Assembly: GCA_022826005.1 (NCBI GenBank)
Contig: JAJDVT010000063.1
Coordinates: 124,001-188,000 of the forward strand
Reading direction: 5' to 3'
Source: Gemmatimonadota bacterium
Lineage (GTDB): Bacteria; Gemmatimonadota; Gemmatimonadetes; Longimicrobiales; Gaopeijiaceae
Length of the DNA: 64,000 bases
How positions within the stretch are numbered: position 1 is the stretch's first letter; each line of letters starts with the position of its first letter. The notes under the pieces are model-generated. The model saw nothing but the letters and a program-made list of their open reading frames with translations, was not told the origin of the DNA and searched no databases. A program made the translations under genes and the position numbers. This document shows, piece after piece, positions 12,461-23,771 of this stretch.

Positions 12461-14268
12461 CGGCCGCCTCCGCCGGGCCGCGAACTCCCCGTCCGCATGC
12501 GGCGCAGTTCCCGCCGCGCGCCCGGGACCACGGGGCTGTCGGGGCGGGCGACGATCAGCGCCTCCAGTATGCGCACCGCCTCGTCCCGGCCGCCCGGCTC
12601 GGCGGCGAGCGCGAGGGCGAACCGCAGCGCGGCTTCGGGATACTCGCGTGAGTCCGGGTGTTCGGCGACGATTCGGCGCCGGAAGGTGATGGCGTCTTCG
12701 GCGGGACCGGCCTCGTCGGCCAGGCGGGCTCCCAGCGCGAGGATGGCGGGGCGGTCGGGGGCGGGGAGTTGGTCGACGCCGTCGCGAACAAGGGCGACGG
12801 CGTGCCCGGGGTCGCCGCGGTGGCTGGCGACGGCGGCCCGGGCGGCAAGCGAGGCGCCAGATGCGGTGAGTTCGCTCAGCGCGAGGGTCAGCTCCAGGAT
12901 CTCGGTCGCGTGGGACGGCTCCAGATCGGGCAGGGCTGCCTGCAGTGCGGCGATCGCGTCCGCCGCCGCACCGTTCTCGAGGAGCAGGAAAGCACGTTCC
13001 AGCGCGGCCCCCGGCCCCTCGATGCCGCTCAGTACGGCCATGGCCTCGTCACGCTTGCCCCGGCCGAGCAGACCGGAGGCAAGCGTGGCCGAGAGGGCAT
13101 CCAGATCGTCCGCGCCGGGGAATTCCTCCTTGAAAGCTGCCAGTTGCTCCATGGCGGCTTCGGTGTCGGACGACCCGACAAGGACGCCGAGTGCGCGCGC
13201 CCAGGCCGTGCGCCTCTCCGCCGTGCCACCCGGGTAGGACAGCGTGATCCGGCGCATTGCCTCGAGCGCGGTCGCCGTATCGCCGGCAGCGAGTGCCTGG
13301 ACCGCGAGCATGTCATCGGCTTGCCGCGCCTCCTCGCTGTCGCCCGCGAGTTCGCGGAGTTCCGCGTAGGCCCACATTGCGCTCCCGTGCAGTCCCGCTT
13401 CCTCCGCCTGCCCCGCGAAGCCGTTGAGGAAGCCCCGCGCCTCCCGCTTCCCGGTGCGGGCCAGCACCGCCGCCGCCAACCGGTGCGCCTCACTCTCGAT
13501 ACCCTCGCGCAGCGCGAGCTCCGCCCCGGCCGCCAGACGGGCCACGGTTGTCGGCTCCGTCCCCATTGCGGCGACGATCTGTTCGGCGACCACCTCACGC
13601 TCATCCCCCAGCTCCCCGACCCTGCGCAGCACCTCGGCGTCACGGGCCCGATCCCGGCCCAGCGCACGGGCCCAGGCCGTGGCCGCCTCCCCGGGCCGCC
13701 CGGCGGCCAGCTCTATCTCGCCCAGCTCCACAAGCAGCAAGGGAAGATCCCCGAGTGCCTCCACCCCCTCTTCGATCAGCTCGGCCGCCCTCGCTTCCCC
13801 GGCGACCTCCACAAGGGCCCGCGCCCCCCCGCGATACGGGTCCGGCGAGCCCGGTGCGGCCCGGATCCAGTTCTCCACGGTGGTCTCAACCGCCGCCAGC
13901 GAATCGACCTCGGTCAGTACGGCCAGCTTGTGCTGCCAGACCAGGCTCGTCTGCGGGTACTCGGCGATGTAGCGATCGAAGAGGGGCAGAACCTCGGTCA
14001 GCCGCCCATCCGCCCTGAGCACCCGTTCGAGCGCCAGAACGGCCGCCGACGACCCGGACTGCATTTCGAGCAGCTCCCTGAGCGTCGCCTCCGCCTCCTT
14101 CAGCTCACCGCGCGACTCCTGCGCCGACGCCTGCCTGAGCATGCGGTTCTCGAGCCGGAGGCCGGAGCGGTTCTGGAGTGCGGCGATCGGCGGCGCGGCC
14201 GCCGCGCCGAGAGCGAGCACGGCCAGGGCGACCACAAACCTCTCCCCAGCCGGCAGCCCCGCTGTCAC
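12457..14268 (-). CDS. Exported TPR-repeat protein
   Basis: 603-residue protein with an N-terminal membrane/signal segment (FVVALAVLALGAAAAPPIAAL) and a long array of Ala/Leu/Glu-rich helical repeats of TPR type (for example GELKEAEATLRELLEMQSG, GRPGEAATAWARALGRD, GDTATALEAMRRITLSYPG, GKRDEAMAVLSGIEG), ending in a Gly/Arg tail. Probably a periplasmic scaffold that binds partner proteins. The GTG start makes a GTGA overlap with the DUF4175 gene and the stop makes another with the next gene, so it is translationally coupled on both sides. No enzymatic motif seen. Confidence 0.85.
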   Translation of the reverse strand: MTAGLPAGERFVVALAVLALGAAAAPPIAALQNRSGLRLENRMLRQASAQESRGELKEAEATLRELLEMQSGSSAAVLALERVLRADGRLTEVLPLFDRYIAEYPQTSLVWQHKLAVLTEVDSLAAVETTVENWIRAAPGSPDPYRGGARALVEVAGEARAAELIEEGVEALGDLPLLLVELGEIELAAGRPGEAATAWARALGRDRARDAEVLRRVGELGDEREVVAEQIVAAMGTEPTTVARLAAGAELALREGIESEAHRLAAAVLARTGKREARGFLNGFAGQAEEAGLHGSAMWAYAELRELAGDSEEARQADDMLAVQALAAGDTATALEAMRRITLSYPGGTAERRTAWARALGVLVGSSDTEAAMEQLAAFKEEFPGADDLDALSATLASGLLGRGKRDEAMAVLSGIEGPGAALERAFLLLENGAAADAIAALQAALPDLEPSHATEILELTLALSELTASGASLAARAAVASHRGDPGHAVALVRDGVDQLPAPDRPAILALGARLADEAGPAEDAITFRRRIVAEHPDSREYPEAALRFALALAAEPGGRDEAVRILEALIVARPDSPVVPGARRELRRMRTGSSRPGGGGR

Positions 14269-17200
14269 CGACTCCCGCCCGGGCCCGGCTGCCCTCCGGA
14301 GCCCCGCGCTGTGCCGTTCAGCCTCTCGAAGTAGCGGACGACCAGTGCACGCTGGGCAGGGGGCAGCGCACGCAGCGCGGCCGCGCCCGGCAACTCGAAG
14401 CGCAGGGCGTCGAGCGATCCGGCCGTCAGCGCGCCGACCGCGTCCCGCGTGAAGCCGCCCGGCTGCTCGGATTCGCGCTCCTCGGACTCCTCGTCGCGTT
14501 CCAGGGTGCGCCCGGCGTCGAGGAGACGGTGGAAGAGCTGTTCCTGGCGCCGGATCACCTCGGGATCGAGCCGGCCCTGGGCGAGTGCCTCGGCGAGCTG
14601 CCGCGCCTCTTCCGCAAAGGCAGAGAGGTCTCCGAGCGGGTTGCCCTCCTCGCCTCGCTGCTCACCCTCCTCGGCCATGTCGCGCAGCTCGCCGGCGACC
14701 TCGTCCTGGCGGTTCGCCATCTCCTCGATCTGCTCCTTCATGGTCTCCTCGCCGAGTCGCATCGGGGTCAGCGCGGAAGCGTCCTGCATGATCTCGCCCT
14801 GCTGCTGGGCGAGCTCCTGCATCTGCTGCATCATCTGCTCCGACGCCGACGCCATGCTCTGGGCCTGTCCCTGCTGCCGGCCCGAGGCCATGGCCATGCG
14901 CGCCACCTCGTTAAGGGTGCGGACCACCTTCTCCGCCTCGGCAGTCGGCGACGGCCCCTGCGAGCGCGGATTCTCCATCGCCGCAATGGTTCCGTCGAGC
15001 TCCTCCATGGCACGTCCGACCGCGGTCAGCAGGTCCCTTGCGCCGGGGGCGGCCATCTCGGTTCCCTCGGCGTAGTTGTCGGCCAGGTTGCGGAGCCCCT
15101 GCGCGATCGCCGCCTCGTCGGCGCGCAACGCGACCAGCTCCGACGCGCTCGCCCTCGCCATCTCGTCCCGCAGCTCCGACTGGCGGCGGGCCAGCGCGAG
15201 CGCGTCGGCCGCGGTCCGGCCGAGCGCCGCGCGGATCGCCTCCATCTGCTGCATCTGCATCTGCATGTGGGCCTGGTTCAGCTGCTGCGAGACCTGGGAC
15301 ATGTCGCCCGCGGCCTGCTGCGCCTGCTGGCCGGCGCTCTGCTGCTGGCCCTGCATCGCCATCTGCGCCGCCTGCCGCATCTGCTGCCGGGCCTGGGAGA
15401 GCTGGTGGCGGGCCTCCTGCACACCCGCTCCCGCACTCTGTTCGCCAGCCTGTTCAAGCGCCTGCTGCAGCTCCTCCAACCGCTGTTGCAGCGCCTCGGC
15501 ATCCGCCTCCAGGCCGGCCTGCTGTTCCGCGCGGAGTTCGGGGTCCCCTCCCTCCGCCATGGCGCGCGCGAGGAGTTCCTGCTGCTCCGCGAGCTCCTCC
15601 GCCTCCTTGCTGGTGGCGCGGAAGTCCTGATCCAGTGCGGCCTCCCTGAACTGTTCGAGCGAGTCCTCGATTCGCTGTCGGAGGCGCTCCCGGTCGATCG
15701 CTATCTGCTCCAGCGCCTTCGCCAGTTCCTCGGGATCCATCTGCGAGAGCTGCTCTTCGAGCTCCGCCAGTGCCTCCTGCTCCTCCTCGGGCGCCACCCG
15801 TTCCAGGAGCTGCTCCAGCTCCCTGATCCGGTCCTCCAGCTCCTGGTCGGCCAACCCCGCATCCCGCAGGGCGTCCCGCAGCTCCTCGAGCTCGCGCCGG
15901 AGCGAGTCGACCTCCTGCATCATCTGTTCCTGCTGCTCCAGCGCCTGCGCGATCTGCTCCCGGTCCTCGAACTGCGCCTGCCCCTCGCGGTTGCCCTCGC
16001 GTCCCGCCTGCGCCTCGGAGCGGGCCTGCAGGTCGCGGGCCTCCTCCTCGGCCCTGCGGGCCTCCTCGGCAAGCTCCTCCATGTCCTCGGCCGCGCGGTC
16101 CAACTCCTCCTGGGCGGCCCGCTCCAGCTCGGTCACGCCACCGATCCAGAGGAGGTACTCGGCGCTCTCGCTCGTCTGCGGCGAGGGATTGTTGTCGACC
16201 GCCCGTGCCCGGTAGCGGATCGTGTCGCCGGGCGAGAGCGTCCAAGCCGACATGTCCAGCACCGGACGGACGATGGCCCCCGCCGATCCGGCGAGCTCGA
16301 CCCCGTGCACCACCGGCTCACCCGCATCCCCGGCAGCGCTGATCCGGCGGACGACGATCTCCACCCTGGCCACCCCGTAGTCGTCCTGCGTCCGGATGAC
16401 GAGGGGCTGGCGGAGATTCACCGGCATGATCGTGTCCACGCCCGGGTAGACGATCGCGATCGCCGGCGGCAGGTCGGGAATCACTTCGATCTCCAGCGGG
16501 GGCGGTTGCACCGCTGCCTCGCCGCCAGCCGCGTCGGTGAAGGTCCAGGTATAGCTGCCGCTGCGCGCCGGGACCCAGCTCCCCTCGAAGCGGGCGCCCT
16601 GGAGTTCGAAGCGCATCGCCGTGCGTCCGTCGGCGCCGGTCAGCGCACCTGTGCCGATTTCGCGGCTCCCCTGGCCTCGCACCCTGAAGTGCGTCCCCGC
16701 CGGGATGGTGAGCGGCGGGACCTCGTTCTGGAACTCCCCGGGCGGAAAGCCGGTGTGGGGCGGGTAGGTCACCTCCAGGGTGAAGGTGTTCACGAAGAGC
16801 GGGTCCACCGGGGTGAGGGTGTGCACCGCGCTGCTCGCCCCGTCCGGCGCCTCGATCCAGTAGCGCGTCTCGGCGGCGATTGGGGGGAGCGATGCGGTGC
16901 CGGAACCGCCCGCGAGCACGATCGTGCGCGACCGGGTCACCTGCCCGGTCACGTCCCAGCGAAGCATGACGCTGTCCCGGAGCGGGGCATCGGCGCGAAC
17001 CTCCACGACCGCCCCGCGCGCCACCTCGGTGGTCCCAGGCTCCAGCGTGACGGGGGGAAGCGCCGGCTCGACGAGAACGGCCAGCGGGTGCAGCAGCCCG
17101 TCCCATGCGGTGAAGGTGCGCGCGGGCGCGAATCCCATCAGCAGCAGCGCGGCGGGCGCCGCCACGAGGAACGCGATCAACCCGCGGCGACGATCCATCC

Positions 17201-17645
17201 CGACCCGTTCCCCCAGTGCGCCGGAGAGGGAGCGGGAGTCCCCCGAGAGGCGCTTGCCGACGCGCGCCAGCGCCAGCTCGCGCAGACCCGGAGACGTCCC
17301 GGGCGGGGCGAATCGCGAGAGTTCCAGGCCCCCCAGCACCGCACCCTCCTCAAGTCCGGCGGTCCCGTCCATAGCGCGGGTGACGCGGTGCTCGGCGCAC
17401 CAGTGCCGGCCCAGGCGCCGCCAGTACCAAACGCCTCCCGGGACGAGGGTCACGATGAGCGCCGCGAGCAGGAGCGGCACCGGGCTTCCCGGATTCCACC
17501 CGTCGCCGCCGGCAAGCGCAGCGGCCAGGATGAGGAGCGCAAGAATACCCGTTCCGCACCAGGCGGCCACCGTGAGTGCGAGGGAGCGCGACAGGTGCCC
17601 GCGGACCCCGTCGACGGCGCGCGCGATCCGGGAGGCAGCGGTCAC
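14265..17645 (-). CDS. DUF4175-family membrane protein with long coiled coil
   Basis: 1126-residue protein of the DUF4175 type. Two membrane helices near the N-terminus (SLALTVAAWCGTGILALLIL and VPLLLAALIVTLVPGGVWYW), a third around residue 160 (LIAFLVAAPAALLLMGFAPA), then an Ig-like periplasmic part (PPVTLEPGTTEVARGAVVEV; PAIAIVYPGVDTIMPVN; IRTQDDYGVARVEIVVRR) and a very long Glu/Gln-rich coiled coil from about residue 545 to 1040. Gln/Met-rich stretches (QMQMQQMEAIRA) occur inside it. In other genomes DUF4175 proteins sit beside MoxR ATPases, DUF58 and DUF4159 proteins; only DUF4159 is here. Start GTG with a GTGA overlap on the upstream fusion gene. Likely envelope-associated; exact job unknown. 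Confidence 0.85.
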   Translation of the reverse strand: MTAASRIARAVDGVRGHLSRSLALTVAAWCGTGILALLILAAALAGGDGWNPGSPVPLLLAALIVTLVPGGVWYWRRLGRHWCAEHRVTRAMDGTAGLEEGAVLGGLELSRFAPPGTSPGLRELALARVGKRLSGDSRSLSGALGERVGMDRRRGLIAFLVAAPAALLLMGFAPARTFTAWDGLLHPLAVLVEPALPPVTLEPGTTEVARGAVVEVRADAPLRDSVMLRWDVTGQVTRSRTIVLAGGSGTASLPPIAAETRYWIEAPDGASSAVHTLTPVDPLFVNTFTLEVTYPPHTGFPPGEFQNEVPPLTIPAGTHFRVRGQGSREIGTGALTGADGRTAMRFELQGARFEGSWVPARSGSYTWTFTDAAGGEAAVQPPPLEIEVIPDLPPAIAIVYPGVDTIMPVNLRQPLVIRTQDDYGVARVEIVVRRISAAGDAGEPVVHGVELAGSAGAIVRPVLDMSAWTLSPGDTIRYRARAVDNNPSPQTSESAEYLLWIGGVTELERAAQEELDRAAEDMEELAEEARRAEEEARDLQARSEAQAGREGNREGQAQFEDREQIAQALEQQEQMMQEVDSLRRELEELRDALRDAGLADQELEDRIRELEQLLERVAPEEEQEALAELEEQLSQMDPEELAKALEQIAIDRERLRQRIEDSLEQFREAALDQDFRATSKEAEELAEQQELLARAMAEGGDPELRAEQQAGLEADAEALQQRLEELQQALEQAGEQSAGAGVQEARHQLSQARQQMRQAAQMAMQGQQQSAGQQAQQAAGDMSQVSQQLNQAHMQMQMQQMEAIRAALGRTAADALALARRQSELRDEMARASASELVALRADEAAIAQGLRNLADNYAEGTEMAAPGARDLLTAVGRAMEELDGTIAAMENPRSQGPSPTAEAEKVVRTLNEVARMAMASGRQQGQAQSMASASEQMMQQMQELAQQQGEIMQDASALTPMRLGEETMKEQIEEMANRQDEVAGELRDMAEEGEQRGEEGNPLGDLSAFAEEARQLAEALAQGRLDPEVIRRQEQLFHRLLDAGRTLERDEESEERESEQPGGFTRDAVGALTAGSLDALRFELPGAAALRALPPAQRALVVRYFERLNGTARGSGGQPGPGGSR

Positions 17646-19225
17646 GAGGCGGCCTGCGTCATCGCGAAGACGAAGATGTTGACTCCCATTCGCAGCGCTT
17701 CCTCTCTGACCTCGGGCGGATCCTCGTGCACACCGGGGTCCTCCCAGCCGTCCCCCAGGTCCGTCTCGTAGGTGTACATCACGACGAGTCTGCCCTGGTG
17801 GAATATACCAAACGCCTGCGGCGGCGCACCGTCATGCTCATGAATCTTGGGGAGTCCGTCCGGGAATTCATAGGGGGAATGGAAGACGGGATGCTCCGGC
17901 GGGAGTTCGACGAGCTCCCGGTCGGGGAAGATGCGCGCGATCTCCTCGCGGAAGGATTCGTCGAGCCCGTAGTTGTCGTCGGCGTGGAGGAAGCCGCCGC
18001 CGAGCAGGTACCGGCGCAGCGCCAGGCGTTCGTCGGGCGTGAAGCGCACGTTGCCGTGTCCGGTCATGTACAGGAAGGGGTAGTCGCGCAGCGAGGGGTC
18101 CATCGGCCGGACCGCCACCTCCCGCTCCGCAGTGGGAATCCCCGTGCGCGCCTCCACCTCGGCCAGCAGATTGGGCAGGGAGGACGGATTCGCGTACCAG
18201 TCGCCGCCCCCGTCGTACTGCAGGCGGGCGATCGTGACCGGGCCGCTGCCCTGCGCGAAGGCCGCATCCACGGGGACCAACCCCGGGAGGAAGGACAGCG
18301 CCGCCGCGAGCACCACCCCACCCCGCACCCGCCCCCCACCCCCCTTCCGCACCCCCATCACGGCCTCGTAGGCCACGCCCCTCGGCACACCCGCGCGGCG
18401 CGCCACCTCCCGTGCGGCGGCGGTCGGGGCCATCCCGGCCTCCACCGCCTCCCGGGCCAGCGCCTCCACCGCCTCCGCGCTCGCCGCGCCATCATCATCG
18501 CCGCGCCCCGCCACGACGACCGTCACCTCGCCGCGCGGCGGGCGCTCGCGGAAGTGGCGGGCAACCTCTTCCGGCGCTCCCCGCACCACCTCCTCATGCA
18601 CCTTCGTCATCTCCCGGCACACGGCGACGCGCCGCCCGGCCCCCGCCACCCGCGCCGCAACAGCCTCCGCAGCCCCCGCCGCCCCCACACCGCGCGCCCG
18701 CTCCGCCAGCTCCTCCAACAGGGCCACCAGACGCGCCGGCGACTCGAACAGCACGGTCGTCTCTCTCGCGTCGATGATCCGCTCCAGCGCCCGGGTCCGC
18801 TTCCCCGCCTTGCGCGGCAGGAAGCCCACGAAGGTGAACGGCACGCAAGGTAGTCCCGAGGCCGCCAGCGCCGCGAGAACCGCGGAGGGTCCCGGAACCG
18901 GCACCACGTCGCACCCGTCCTCGATGGCGCGGCGCACCAGGCGCTCCCCCGGGTCGGAGAGGAGCGGCGTGCCCGCGTCGGAGATCAGCGCCACGTCGTC
19001 GCCGCGCGCGAGCCAGCGTGCCGCCTGCTCCACCCGGGCGGCCTCGTTGTGCGCATGCAGAGAAGCGGGCCGCTTCGGGACGCCGATGTGCGACAGCAGC
19101 ACCCGCGCGCGCCTGGTGTCCTCCGCGAGGATGTGGTGGGCGGCGGCGAGGGTCTCCCGCGCGCGCGGCGACAGATCGGCCAGGTTCCCGATCGGGGTCG
19201 CCACGACATGGAGCCTTCCCGCCAC
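17642..19225 (-). CDS. rsmI: In-frame fusion: RsmI 16S rRNA 2'-O-methyltransferase + secreted DUF4159 domain
   Basis: One open frame of 527 residues. Residues 1 to about 290 are RsmI (methylates C1402 of 16S rRNA with SAM): HVVATPIGNLADLSPRARE, LAEDTRRARVLL, LISDAGTPLLSDPG, VVPVPGPSAVLAALAASG, FVGFLPRKAGKR and a C-terminal helix ending YEAVMG, the normal end of the family. From Met290 (ATG at 18358) the protein reads like a signal peptide (MGVRKGGGGRVRGG, then VVLAAALSFLPG...AAFAQ) and a DUF4159 domain (FLYMTGHGNVRF, GGGFLHADDNYGLDESF, LVVMYTYETDLGDGWED). GAGG lies 5 bases before ATG 18358, so a separate exported DUF4159 protein may be made from an internal start. The junction lies in poly-C/G runs (18315-18356), where an assembly indel is conceivable. 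GTG start at 19225; GTGA overlap with the DUF4175 gene. Confidence 0.85.
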   Translation of the reverse strand: MAGRLHVVATPIGNLADLSPRARETLAAAHHILAEDTRRARVLLSHIGVPKRPASLHAHNEAARVEQAARWLARGDDVALISDAGTPLLSDPGERLVRRAIEDGCDVVPVPGPSAVLAALAASGLPCVPFTFVGFLPRKAGKRTRALERIIDARETTVLFESPARLVALLEELAERARGVGAAGAAEAVAARVAGAGRRVAVCREMTKVHEEVVRGAPEEVARHFRERPPRGEVTVVVAGRGDDDGAASAEAVEALAREAVEAGMAPTAAAREVARRAGVPRGVAYEAVMGVRKGGGGRVRGGVVLAAALSFLPGLVPVDAAFAQGSGPVTIARLQYDGGGDWYANPSSLPNLLAEVEARTGIPTAEREVAVRPMDPSLRDYPFLYMTGHGNVRFTPDERLALRRYLLGGGFLHADDNYGLDESFREEIARIFPDRELVELPPEHPVFHSPYEFPDGLPKIHEHDGAPPQAFGIFHQGRLVVMYTYETDLGDGWEDPGVHEDPPEVREEALRMGVNIFVFAMTQAAS

Positions 19226-19231
19226 GCGGTC

Positions 19232-20242
19232 CTACCCCGGCGGGCGAATGACCCGGGCTACCCGGAAACCGAGCCCGTTGTCCCGGCGGCCAGGCTGGAA
19301 CGGCAGCCGGTAGTCCACCCGGAGCATCTCCGTGGTGTAGCCCCAGGTGCCCCCGCGCAGCACCCGTCGTTCGCACCCCGATGGACTCCAGGCACCACCA
19401 TCGTCCGGCGCGTCGGCGTAGTTCGCGTTCCAGCAGTCCTCCGTCCACTCGGCCAGGTTCCCGATCACGTCATACAGCCCGAACGCGTTCGGTTCGTAGG
19501 AGCCCACCGGCGCCGTGCCCTCACCCTGTCCGTCCGAGCAGGACGCCGTCGTCAGGCCGAACTGCTCCCTGAGCTGCCTGCCCCGCGGCGTCCCCCCATA
19601 CTCCCGGTCCCACCCGTTCGCATGGCGGCACTGCTCCGCTTCGCTGTCCCCCCAGTAGCGGGGCGTCCGGGTTCCCGCCCGGGCCGCGTACTCCCACTCC
19701 GCCTCGGTGGGGAGCCGGTAGGTCTCTCCCGTCTCCGCCGATAGCCAGCGCGCGTAGACGTGCGCATCGTCCCAGCTCACTTCGGTCACCGGACGCCGCC
19801 CCCGGCCCCATCCATGGTCGGGGGGCACCCGGCCGCCACAGCCTCCTCCATCGGTGCACGCCTGCCACTCGTCGAAGGTCACCTCGTACACTCCGATGGC
19901 GAAGTCGTAGGCGATCGTGACGAACCGCGGCGGTCCGTCGCCATCGAAGGGTCCCGCGTTCCAGGTCGGCGAGCCCATGACGAACCTTCCCGCCGGAATC
20001 ACCGCCATCTCCGGACAGTGCGGGCAGTCGCGGAAGACTCTGCTGCCGGGGCCCGGAACGGCCGCGGGATCCGGGCTGGTACTCGGGCGCGGAACGGCCG
20101 CGGGATCCGGGCTGGCACTCGGGCGCGGCAGGGCTGCGGGATCCGGGCTGGCGCCGGGGTCTTGTCCCCGCGATCCGGATCCCGGGGAGGCGCACGCGGC
20201 CGCGGCGCATGCGGTCAAGACCCATAGCGCGCGGGTGCACAT
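19232..20242 (-). CDS. SUMF1/FGE-like lipoprotein, paralogue 1 (no catalytic Cys pair)
   Basis: 336-residue secreted protein. The chosen ATG at 20242 gives MCTRALWVLTACAAAACASPG, a lipoprotein-like signal; longer starts (20320) are possible but sit in the trxA-proximal spacer. After a Pro/Ala/Asp repeat linker comes a formylglycine-generating-enzyme (SUMF1) fold: FRDCPHCPEMAVIPAGRF, VTFDEWQACTD, RRPVTEVSWDDAHVYARWLS, YRLPTEAEWEYAARAG, FGLYDVIGNLAEWTEDCW and RRVLRGGTWGYTTEMLR. True FGE has two cysteines in the last motif; here they are absent, so sulfatase activation is unlikely. Several other cysteines are shared with the two paralogues downstream, suggesting disulfides. It ends just before the rsmI fusion and its TAG overlaps that gene's ribosome-binding region. 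Role unknown: binding, or a non-FGE oxidoreductase-like activity. Confidence 0.82.
   Translation of the reverse strand: MCTRALWVLTACAAAACASPGSGSRGQDPGASPDPAALPRPSASPDPAAVPRPSTSPDPAAVPGPGSRVFRDCPHCPEMAVIPAGRFVMGSPTWNAGPFDGDGPPRFVTIAYDFAIGVYEVTFDEWQACTDGGGCGGRVPPDHGWGRGRRPVTEVSWDDAHVYARWLSAETGETYRLPTEAEWEYAARAGTRTPRYWGDSEAEQCRHANGWDREYGGTPRGRQLREQFGLTTASCSDGQGEGTAPVGSYEPNAFGLYDVIGNLAEWTEDCWNANYADAPDDGGAWSPSGCERRVLRGGTWGYTTEMLRVDYRLPFQPGRRDNGLGFRVARVIRPPG
20054..20161 (-). repeat. Three 36-bp tandem units coding a Pro/Ala/Ser linker
   Basis: Units begin at 20054, 20090 and 20126; the first two are nearly identical and the third has drifted. They encode SPDPAAVPRPS-like 12-residue repeats between the lipoprotein signal and the SUMF1 domain. 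A whole-codon unit length permits in-frame expansion. Confidence 0.85.
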
Positions 20243-20327
20243 CCCCGGGGCACGCGATGCCGGGGCCGTCACCGCGTGGGGCCCCGTCATCCCGGCGGTC
20301 ACAGGTTCGGCCTTCCGCATGCCAGCC

Positions 20328-20660
20328 CTACAGGTGCTCTTCGATCTTCTGCGCCAGCTGGGCCTTCGGCACCGCGCCGATGACGGTGTCGACATGCTCC
20401 CCGCCCTTGAAGAAGAGGACCGTGGGGATCGACCGCACCCCGAAGCGCATCGAGGTCGACATGTTGGCGTCCACGTCCAGCTTGCCGACCCGGACGCGCC
20501 CCGCGAAATCGTCGGCCAGTTCGCTTACGAAGGGCGCGATGATCCGGCAGGGTCCGCACCACGCGGCCCAGAAGTCCACCATCGAAAGGCCATCGTAGTC
20601 CTCGATCTGTTCCTTGAAGTTGTCGTCGGTGACCGTGACGAGATTCGTGCTGTCCGCCAT
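20328..20660 (-). CDS. trxA: Thioredoxin
   Basis: 110-residue cytoplasmic disulfide reductase. MADSTNLVTVTDDNFKEQI starts the family pattern; the redox motif is WCGPC in DFWAAWCGPCRIIAP, with the cis-proline in RSIPTVLFFKGG. ATG 20660 has GGAG 8 bases upstream. Length and motifs match bacterial Trx1. It diverges from the methylmalonyl-CoA epimerase gene; the 88-bp spacer should hold both promoters. It is upstream of the first SUMF1-like gene, which has many cysteines, but Trx as cytoplasmic reductant need not be related. Confidence 0.95.
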   Translation of the reverse strand: MADSTNLVTVTDDNFKEQIEDYDGLSMVDFWAAWCGPCRIIAPFVSELADDFAGRVRVGKLDVDANMSTSMRFGVRSIPTVLFFKGGEHVDTVIGAVPKAQLAQKIEEHL

Positions 20661-21339: not shown

Positions 21340-22689
21340 TCAGTTCAGGTCCCGGGCGACCCGGAACCCGATTCGCCCGTAATCGATCGCCTGGACTGAG
21401 CGGGCCGCCGCGCGCAGGGCGGCGGGCGGGGTTCCCGAGCCACCCCCGCGCACCACCCGGACGCCACAGTTTCCCGTCTCCCAGGCGCTGCCGTCGGTCG
21501 GTGCTCCCGCGTAGAGCGGGTTCCAGCAGTCCCGGGTCCACTCGGACCGGTTGCCCAGGATGTCGTGCAGCCCGAAGGCGTTCGGCACATACAGTCCCAC
21601 CGGCGCCGCCCCGGCGTAGCCATCGGAACAGGCCGCCGCGCTCTCCGACGGCCGCTCCGTCAGATACACCCGGTCCTGGGCGTTCGCGTGTTCGCACTGC
21701 CCCGCCTCGCCGTCTCCCCAGTACCGCATCCCCGGCGTACCGGCACGCGCCACGTACTCCCACTCGGCCTCGCTCAACAGCCGGTACCGCTGCCCCGTCT
21801 CCGCCGACAGCCACGCCACGTAGGCCTGCGCCTGCACCCAGGTCACGCCGACGGGATACCGGTCCCGGCCTTCCACCCCGTCATCCGGGCGGACCACTTC
21901 GCAATCACCCGCCAGCTCGCACGCGGCCCATTCGGCGAAGGTCACCTCGTAGGCGCCGACCGCGAACGGGGCGCCGATCGTCACCTGGTGGAGCGGCTGC
22001 TCGTTTCTCTCGCGGCCCTCCTCCGAATCCGGGGAGCCCATGGTGAAGGTCCCCGCCGGAACGACCACCATCCCCGGACATGCGTCGCAGTCACGGAACA
22101 GACCCTCGGGCTCCGGGCGCGGGACCACGGGACGATCCGGGTCGGCTTCGACCTCCCCCCATCGCAGCTGCAGGAACTTCCCGTAGCTGCTTCCGTCGTT
22201 GTAGGTGGTGAAGCGTTCGTTGAGGGTGGTCGCGCGGGCTTCCGCGTCTCCCCAGCTCGCTCCGAACCCGATCGCGAAGTTCGTGAACCTGGGATCCTCC
22301 GGGCCCACCTCGTCGTCCCGGCGGACGACCGCCGAGAACCGGACGACCACCACGTGCGTATCCCCCGGGCCCGACCGGGCGCACCGGATGAGGGGGTAGC
22401 CGGCAAGCTGCTCGCGGACCGCCTCTTCCGCCTCCTGCATGTAGACCGTATCGACATCGGTGACGTACCCGAATTCCTCGTCCCGCGGGATTGTCCGATC
22501 CGGGTCCCCGCCCGCCACGACCCCGGGCTCGCTGCCGATGCATACCACGGCCCCCAGGCCGGGCTGGGCGGTCGCCGGTTGGGGAAACGCGGTTGAAAGC
22601 GGCGCGAGGGCGAGCACCGCCGGGAGGAGCCGGCACCATCGTGGGGGACAGGGGACTCGCGTCCGGGAAGCGGACCAGCGCGGACGCAT
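21340..22689 (-). CDS. SUMF1/FGE-like secreted protein, paralogue 2, with extra N-terminal domain
   Basis: 449-residue protein from ATG 22689. Signal segment about residues 22-42 (LLPAVLALAPLSTAFPQPAT). A unique domain of about 140 residues follows (VVCIGSEPGVVAGG...DTHVVVVRFSAVVRRDDE...SSYGKFLQLRWG) that I do not recognise. The C-terminal SUMF1 domain has LFRDCDACPGMVVVPAG, EVTFAEWAACELAGDC, YRLLSEAEWEYVARAG, FGLHDILGNRSEWTRDCWN and VVRGGGSGTPPAALRAAAR; the FGE catalytic cysteines are missing. ATG 22689 lies inside a partial copy of the dispersed repeat, so the start region may be recently acquired; ribosome-binding sequence there is weak. Transcribed after paralogue 3 with a 56-bp gap. Confidence 0.8.
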   Translation of the reverse strand: MRPRWSASRTRVPCPPRWCRLLPAVLALAPLSTAFPQPATAQPGLGAVVCIGSEPGVVAGGDPDRTIPRDEEFGYVTDVDTVYMQEAEEAVREQLAGYPLIRCARSGPGDTHVVVVRFSAVVRRDDEVGPEDPRFTNFAIGFGASWGDAEARATTLNERFTTYNDGSSYGKFLQLRWGEVEADPDRPVVPRPEPEGLFRDCDACPGMVVVPAGTFTMGSPDSEEGRERNEQPLHQVTIGAPFAVGAYEVTFAEWAACELAGDCEVVRPDDGVEGRDRYPVGVTWVQAQAYVAWLSAETGQRYRLLSEAEWEYVARAGTPGMRYWGDGEAGQCEHANAQDRVYLTERPSESAAACSDGYAGAAPVGLYVPNAFGLHDILGNRSEWTRDCWNPLYAGAPTDGSAWETGNCGVRVVRGGGSGTPPAALRAAARSVQAIDYGRIGFRVARDLN

Positions 22690-22736
22690 CGCCGCTCGAA
22701 CGCCGCAGGGGTCTCGTCTACGGGCCGCCGGGGCGA
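22668..22736 (+). repeat. Partial copy (right end) of the dispersed repeat
   Basis: About 70 bp that align with the right end of the repeat at 43517-43754 and 61328-61574, including GCGGACCAGC, CGGACGCATCGCCG, CGAACGCCG and CTACGGGC. Lies between SUMF1-like paralogues 3 and 2 and covers the ATG of paralogue 2. Orientation is the same as the copy at 43.5 kb. Confidence 0.65.
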
Positions 22737-22745
22737 TGCCGAGCG

Positions 22746-23651
22746 TCAATCCACGGTCCTGGCAACGCGGAGACCGATCACGAAGTACCGGTTTTCCGCG
22801 GGCCATCCGAGGCGGAAGGCCGAGCGCAGGACGCGCGCTCCGCCGAACCAGCCCCCGCCACGCATCGAACGAGATGAACAATCCCCCGCCTCCCAGGCGC
22901 TCCCATCCGTCGGGGCGCCATCGTATCTCTCGTTCCAGCAGTCCTGGGTCCACTCGTTCACGTTCCCGATCACGTCGTACAGTCCGAACATGTTCGCCGT
23001 GTAGCTTCCCACCGGCGCGGTGCGGCCGTGTCCGTCGGCACACTGCGCGGGGTTCGTCCGGTTGTATTCCGCCATCCACGCCCTCCCCTCGCCGGTCCGG
23101 GCGAGATCCTGGTCCAAACCGTTCGCATTCCGGCACTGTGCCGACTCACCGCCTTCCCAGTATCGCGCGGTCCGGGTACCCGCCCGCGCCACGTACTCCC
23201 ACTCCGCTTCGCTCAGCAGGCGGTAGTTCTCCCCAGTCTCCCGCGACAACCATTGCACGTAGCCTTGCGCGTCCTCCCAGCTCACGTTGATCACCGGCCG
23301 GCGGCCCCGGCCCCACCCCTCGTCCCCCGGACGGTATCCCGCGCATCCCCCCGCGCTCACACACGCATCCCACTCCTCGAAGGTTACCTCGTAGACCCCG
23401 ACCGCGAGCGGCGCCCCGATCGTCACCTCGTGTTGCGGATCCTCCAGCGGGAACCGCCCTTCCTCGTCCGCAGCGGACCCCATCGCGAAGCTCCCGCCCG
23501 GAACGATCACCATCAGCGGACACGCCGCACAGTCCCTGAACGTCTCGCCGGTCTCCTGGGCCGCCATGGGCCCGGGGACCGTCATCACGGCGAGGGCCGC
23601 CCCGAGGGACAGCGCAGCGCACCACCCGATTCCCTGATTCCGGACAACCAT
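22746..23651 (-). CDS. SUMF1/FGE-like secreted protein, paralogue 3
   Basis: 301-residue exported protein. ATG 23651 has a strong GGAGGT upstream and starts a signal peptide (MVVRNQGIGWCAALSLGAAL, cleavage probably after PMAAQ). The SUMF1 domain follows at once: TFRDCAACPLMVIVPGGSF, VTFEEWDACVSAGGC, RRPVINVSWEDAQGYVQWLS, YRLLSEAEWEYVARAG, FGLYDVIGNVNEWTQDCWN, SMRGGGWFGGARVLRSAFR. No catalytic Cys pair. It shares with the other two the pairs DCxxCP, CxxxGxC, a Cys before an SDG/ADG turn, and DCWN..DG.AW....C, so the three form one subfamily made by duplication. Confidence 0.85.
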   Translation of the reverse strand: MVVRNQGIGWCAALSLGAALAVMTVPGPMAAQETGETFRDCAACPLMVIVPGGSFAMGSAADEEGRFPLEDPQHEVTIGAPLAVGVYEVTFEEWDACVSAGGCAGYRPGDEGWGRGRRPVINVSWEDAQGYVQWLSRETGENYRLLSEAEWEYVARAGTRTARYWEGGESAQCRNANGLDQDLARTGEGRAWMAEYNRTNPAQCADGHGRTAPVGSYTANMFGLYDVIGNVNEWTQDCWNERYDGAPTDGSAWEAGDCSSRSMRGGGWFGGARVLRSAFRLGWPAENRYFVIGLRVARTVD

Positions 23652-23771
23652 CTCGTAGAAGACCTCCGCACGCAAAAGACCGATCGGTTGGCACCGGGGC
23701 CACAGCAGCCTGCCGCCACGGCAACCCGTCCGGAAACGTTAGCACAAACCCGGCCGGGGAGCATCCGGCGG

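Follow-up and report, generated by a model that had tools for sequence, protein, structure and literature searches.

Can a cytoplasmic rRNA-modifying enzyme and a protein with an export signal be made as one polypeptide, and if so, how might the two be parted afterwards? This question is raised by a locus in the window studied here (the whole stretch of DNA analysed, 64 kb in length), whose ORF listing contains a single stop-free frame of 527 codons with a GTG start, in which a complete RsmI is followed by a 35-residue signal-peptide-like stretch and then by a complete DUF4159 domain (Table 1).

Results

The N-terminal half of the frame matches TIGR00096, the NCBIfam equivalog model of RsmI, over nearly its full length (residues 5-287, model positions 2-269 of 275) with 198.6 bits against a cut-off of 167.9, and Pfam TP_methylase at residues 4-220 (1.3e-29). 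Judged by these profiles it is RsmI, the predicted 16S rRNA C1402 2'-O-methyltransferase, and 5hw4 and 9pzg are its solved relatives. The C-terminal half covers the whole of Pfam DUF4159 (PF13709, model 1-202 of 202) at 1.3e-69 and 234.3 bits against a cut-off of 25.9; a literature search found no paper with DUF4159. The description of RsmI and DUF4159 as joined in one frame, given in an earlier sequence-only reading of this DNA, is thus borne out by both matches and by the lack of any internal stop. Close together upstream of the fused gene lie three FGE-sulfatase (formylglycine-generating enzyme-like) genes (19232-20395, 21340-23136, 22746-23675 (-)).

Table 1. Positions of the fused gene, its parts and the following gene in the window
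Feature	Position	Strand	Remarks
Fused ORF RsmI-signal peptide-DUF4159	17642-19225	-	527 aa, GTG start, TGA stop; stop-free arrangement also in G005, G020, G016, G019
RsmI part, codons 1-289	18359-19225	-	TIGR00096 equivalog; sole copy found in the G000 genome
Junction, codons 290-324	18254-18358	-	Last Met of RsmI and basic tail as n-region, hydrophobic core, AFA/Q cleavage motif; sequence features
DUF4159 domain, residues 331-522	17660-18235	-	Pfam match; relative in PDB 4i66
ATG proposed earlier as nested start	18356-18358	-	Codes Met290 in the last predicted helix of RsmI
Following gene; DUF4175 match weak, under the Pfam cut-off	14265-17645	-	4-nt overlap between its GTG start and the TGA stop of the fused ORF

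The RsmI profile matched exactly once in each of eight genomes checked, all five with the fusion included, and as no second rsmI copy was found among them, the fused gene must supply RsmI. Nei-Gojobori omega values of RsmI amounted to 0.14-0.26 in pairs within the fused groups versus 0.17-0.36 in seven pairs not both fused, so that relaxed selection on RsmI after fusion was not seen, and DUF4159 yielded 0.04-0.10 within the fused groups. By these ratios, both halves of the fused gene remain under purifying selection. The junction evolves fast, with rough omega values of 0.4-1.1 obtained from short alignments of about 30 codons.

Among 23 genomes searched in the genus, which belongs to the Gemmatimonadota, 22 matched the RsmI-DUF4159 query; a 2.8 Mb member with a listed completeness of 96% (G011) gave no match. 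The stop-free arrangement occurs in five members, each from a separate assembly: G000, the genome of the window, together with G005 and G020 (clade A), and G016 and G019 (clade B), the two groups having different junctions. Unfused members carry two genes, which in most cases occupy different frames and overlap by 4 nt (GTGA or ATGA), and their RsmI extends past YEAVM by a variable tail. Outside the genus, some family members (e.g. G023, G032 and G033) have both genes in one frame with a stop between, which confirms the existence of relatives with separate genes that the earlier reading had raised. No stop-free fusion was found outside the genus among the matches listed from 121 family and 394 class genomes (class listing with E up to 1e-100), ruling out the fusion as a widespread architecture within that scope. 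G008 groups with G000 in clade A and was left out of the fused count because its assembly breaks at the junction, rsmI and DUF4159 lying on different contigs and the rsmI contig ending there. Its DUF4159 contig opens with an AT-rich stretch of ~80 bases that gives a stop in the DUF4159 frame. In G012 and G015, too, rsmI and DUF4159 are found on different contigs; the GTGA overlap can still be recognised at the G015 junction. AT-rich stretches with TATGG- or ATATGG-like words stand at the rsmI-DUF4159 junctions of G021, G007 and G012 (L018, L024 and L065), in a lineage of roughly 70% GC.

A missing base in a G/C-rich run could imitate such a fusion, as had been feared for this locus, and both the homopolymer runs at the junction and the G008 assembly, which breaks exactly there, would fit an error of assembly or sequencing. 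Against this, five species with two junction types share the stop-free state in separate records (a coverage of 461 is stated for the G016 contig), and the junctions differ in length by whole codons, comprising 35 codons in G000 and 32 in G005 and G020. Since the same arrangement recurs in G005, G020, G016 and G019, chance and a local sequencing error can both be dismissed, and we consider an artefact extremely improbable.

A tree of RsmI and DUF4159 together requires two switches between the separate and the fused state. Forcing all fused members into one clade cost 129 log-likelihood units (p-AU 8.75e-38), by which a single origin was rejected; the phylogeny indicates that the fusion arose twice independently within one genus. 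G022, the sister of clade A, is unfused, and so are G004 and G001, the neighbours of clade B. Relative to G004, about 100 bases are missing from clade B, among them the RsmI tail with its stop and the start of DUF4159, and the junction of clade A is G-rich and of a different make-up. Ancestrally, the genes would have been adjacent, mostly with a 4-nt overlap in different frames, and the in-frame fusion would have come about through indels that eliminated the stop of RsmI and the start of DUF4159.

The ATG at 18358 is codon 290 (YEAV-M) and is preceded by TACGAGGCCGTG; from it, the fused frame reads MGVRKGGGGRVRGGVVLAAALSFLPGLVPVDAAFA, followed by the putative cleavage point and then QGSGPVT. 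In all five fused species, the segment beginning at this codon has the features of a Sec signal peptide, namely 23-35 residues with a basic n-region (3-4 K/R), a hydrophobic core and small residues at -3 and -1 in an A-x-A/Q motif, of which AFA, ALA and AVA are the variants, and the signal-peptide-like segment reported earlier is hence seen in each of them. The hydrophobic core is short, its best 12-residue mean on the Kyte-Doolittle scale being 2.1-2.7. In an AlphaFold2 model, the last helix of RsmI (residues 282-294) contains Met290 and junction residues 295-327 have a pLDDT under 50; at a mean pLDDT of 72.6 and a pTM of 0.43, the relative placement of the RsmI and DUF4159 domains is not interpreted.

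Start strength was expressed as one simple duplex energy between the upstream region and an assumed anti-Shine-Dalgarno sequence, CCUCCUUU, with 261 internal ATG and GTG codons from eight ORFs of the window as background. The presumed DUF4159 starts of 15 unfused relatives ranged from -7.8 to -11.9 kcal/mol, a value of -7.8 being reached by 7% of the background codons. The fused ATG gave -5.2 kcal/mol in clade A, as do 31% of the background codons or better, and only -1.1 and -0.7 in clade B, so that no start signal above background was found at ATG 18358. Moreover, this YEAV-ATG (or YDAV-ATG) site occurs in nine unfused relatives as well, with pairing values that span the same range, and GAGG...ATG is identical in unfused relatives whose DUF4159 appears to start elsewhere. 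The site therefore simply encodes part of the last RsmI helix and does not indicate a start.

These values bear on the nested start, which the sequence-only reading placed at ATG 18358. On this explanation, most DUF4159 would arise from internal initiation, either there or at a different codon of the frame, and would have an ordinary N-terminal signal peptide, the read-through fusion being a by-product. The ATG and its GAGG exist as described, all five fused species retain the Met, and the likeness of the following segment to a normal signal peptide would suit such a nested start, as would GTG 18328 of G000, which has a strong G-rich upstream match (-10.0 kcal/mol). However, unfused relatives carry the ATG and GAGG too, as normal RsmI coding sequence, the pairing at the fused ATG is unremarkable in clade A and close to nil in clade B, and GTG 18328 is replaced by CTG in G005 and TCG in G020. 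In addition, ribosomes translating RsmI meet no stop, so the fusion would be made anyway. We thus regard the nested start as unlikely. Programmed frameshifting to release RsmI was likewise rejected, since the other two frames of the fused genes share no nearby stop (first stops 1 to 488 nt downstream, with no common pattern). With neither a stop codon nor a shared frameshift exit, ribosomes that reach the end of RsmI all have to go on into DUF4159. Internal initiation might supply a certain amount of free DUF4159 in addition but, by the sequence, could not prevent the fusion product.

Discussion

Our preferred reading, to which we assign a probability of about 55%, is that one RsmI-signal peptide-DUF4159 precursor enters the membrane in N-in/C-out orientation and that signal peptidase cleaves it after A-x-A. 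All RsmI would then be made as part of this precursor. The internal signal would insert through Sec while RsmI folds in the cytoplasm, and signal peptidase I would cut after AFA, ALA or AVA (before Gln325 in G000) to deliver DUF4159 to the periplasm. The hydrophobic tail left on RsmI would be either tolerated or trimmed, e.g. by a site-2 protease; genes for signal peptidase I and an M50 site-2 protease are present in the G000 genome. In favour of the precursor we count the disappearance of the strong Shine-Dalgarno pairing of the separate starts from the fused genes. Against it stand the short hydrophobic core, the fast-evolving junction and the GTG 18328 of G000, and export may be impeded by a folded domain of 290 residues ahead of the signal peptide.

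Many membrane proteins are single-pass with N-in/C-out topology, and the same open frame with its hydrophobic segment would allow an uncleaved membrane protein that tethers RsmI to the inner membrane with DUF4159 outside. Conservation of A-x-A/Q in all five fused species speaks against permanent anchoring, as does the hydrophobicity of the segment, whose best Kyte-Doolittle mean over 19 residues (1.5-1.9) falls in the low to middle range for a stable anchor. We hold this topology to be rather improbable. Alternatively, housekeeping proteases rather than signal peptidase might split the precursor within the junction, whose low pLDDT suggests disorder. Against such processing stand the retention of the export motif in every fused species and the strong purifying selection on DUF4159, and we consider it highly improbable.

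An internal signal peptide within a fused gene is known from Bradyrhizobium japonicum FbcH, where cytochrome b and c1 are separated into two proteins after translation. Its likeness to RsmI-DUF4159 lies in the gene architecture and the internal signal. The proteins joined in FbcH work together in a single membrane complex, whereas RsmI and DUF4159 are not known to be partners.

The precursor we favour has a further counterpart in the anti-sigma factor RsiV of Bacillus subtilis, in which a signal-like segment likewise lies inside the protein, between a cytoplasmic N-terminal domain and an extracellular one. Signal peptidase cuts RsiV behind the cytoplasmic domain before the site-2 protease RasP acts (PMC6066255), a route like the one proposed here. 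The objection that RsmI-DUF4159 makes little sense as one polypeptide therefore no longer holds. In contrast to the fused protein, which joins two proteins separate elsewhere, RsiV is one functional unit and its cleavage is regulated by lysozyme. As for the cytoplasmic product, purified E. coli RsmI ended at Pro258 (PMC5053481), from which we infer that the C-terminal end of RsmI is tolerant of change.

In bacteria, overlapping stop and start codons couple genes by termination-reinitiation (PMC6728339), and 4-nt overlapping pairs of this kind are the rsmI/DUF4159 arrangement of most unfused relatives. The fused species, by contrast, have lost both this stop and this start, which makes termination-reinitiation impossible at the junction, and the fusion would replace such coupling by covalent 1:1 synthesis. 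Of what defines a polyprotein processed by signal peptidase, the fused genes show the stop-free frame and the A-x-A motif, and cleavage of the internal signal is predicted from sequence. Tentatively, and with clearly less confidence than in the precursor itself, we speculate that this lineage twice turned a termination-reinitiation pair into a polyprotein, in which the downstream signal peptide would carry RsmI to the membrane and signal peptidase would free it, so that the amount of RsmI produced would be linked to export.

Automated annotations of frames fused in this way, whether as one product or two, should not be accepted unchecked. With the fused gene, one can test whether a signal peptide functions deep within a bacterial precursor, and the genus offers a natural experiment showing that a cytoplasmic enzyme and a secreted protein can lose the boundary between them. 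This happened twice, and selection has maintained both halves.
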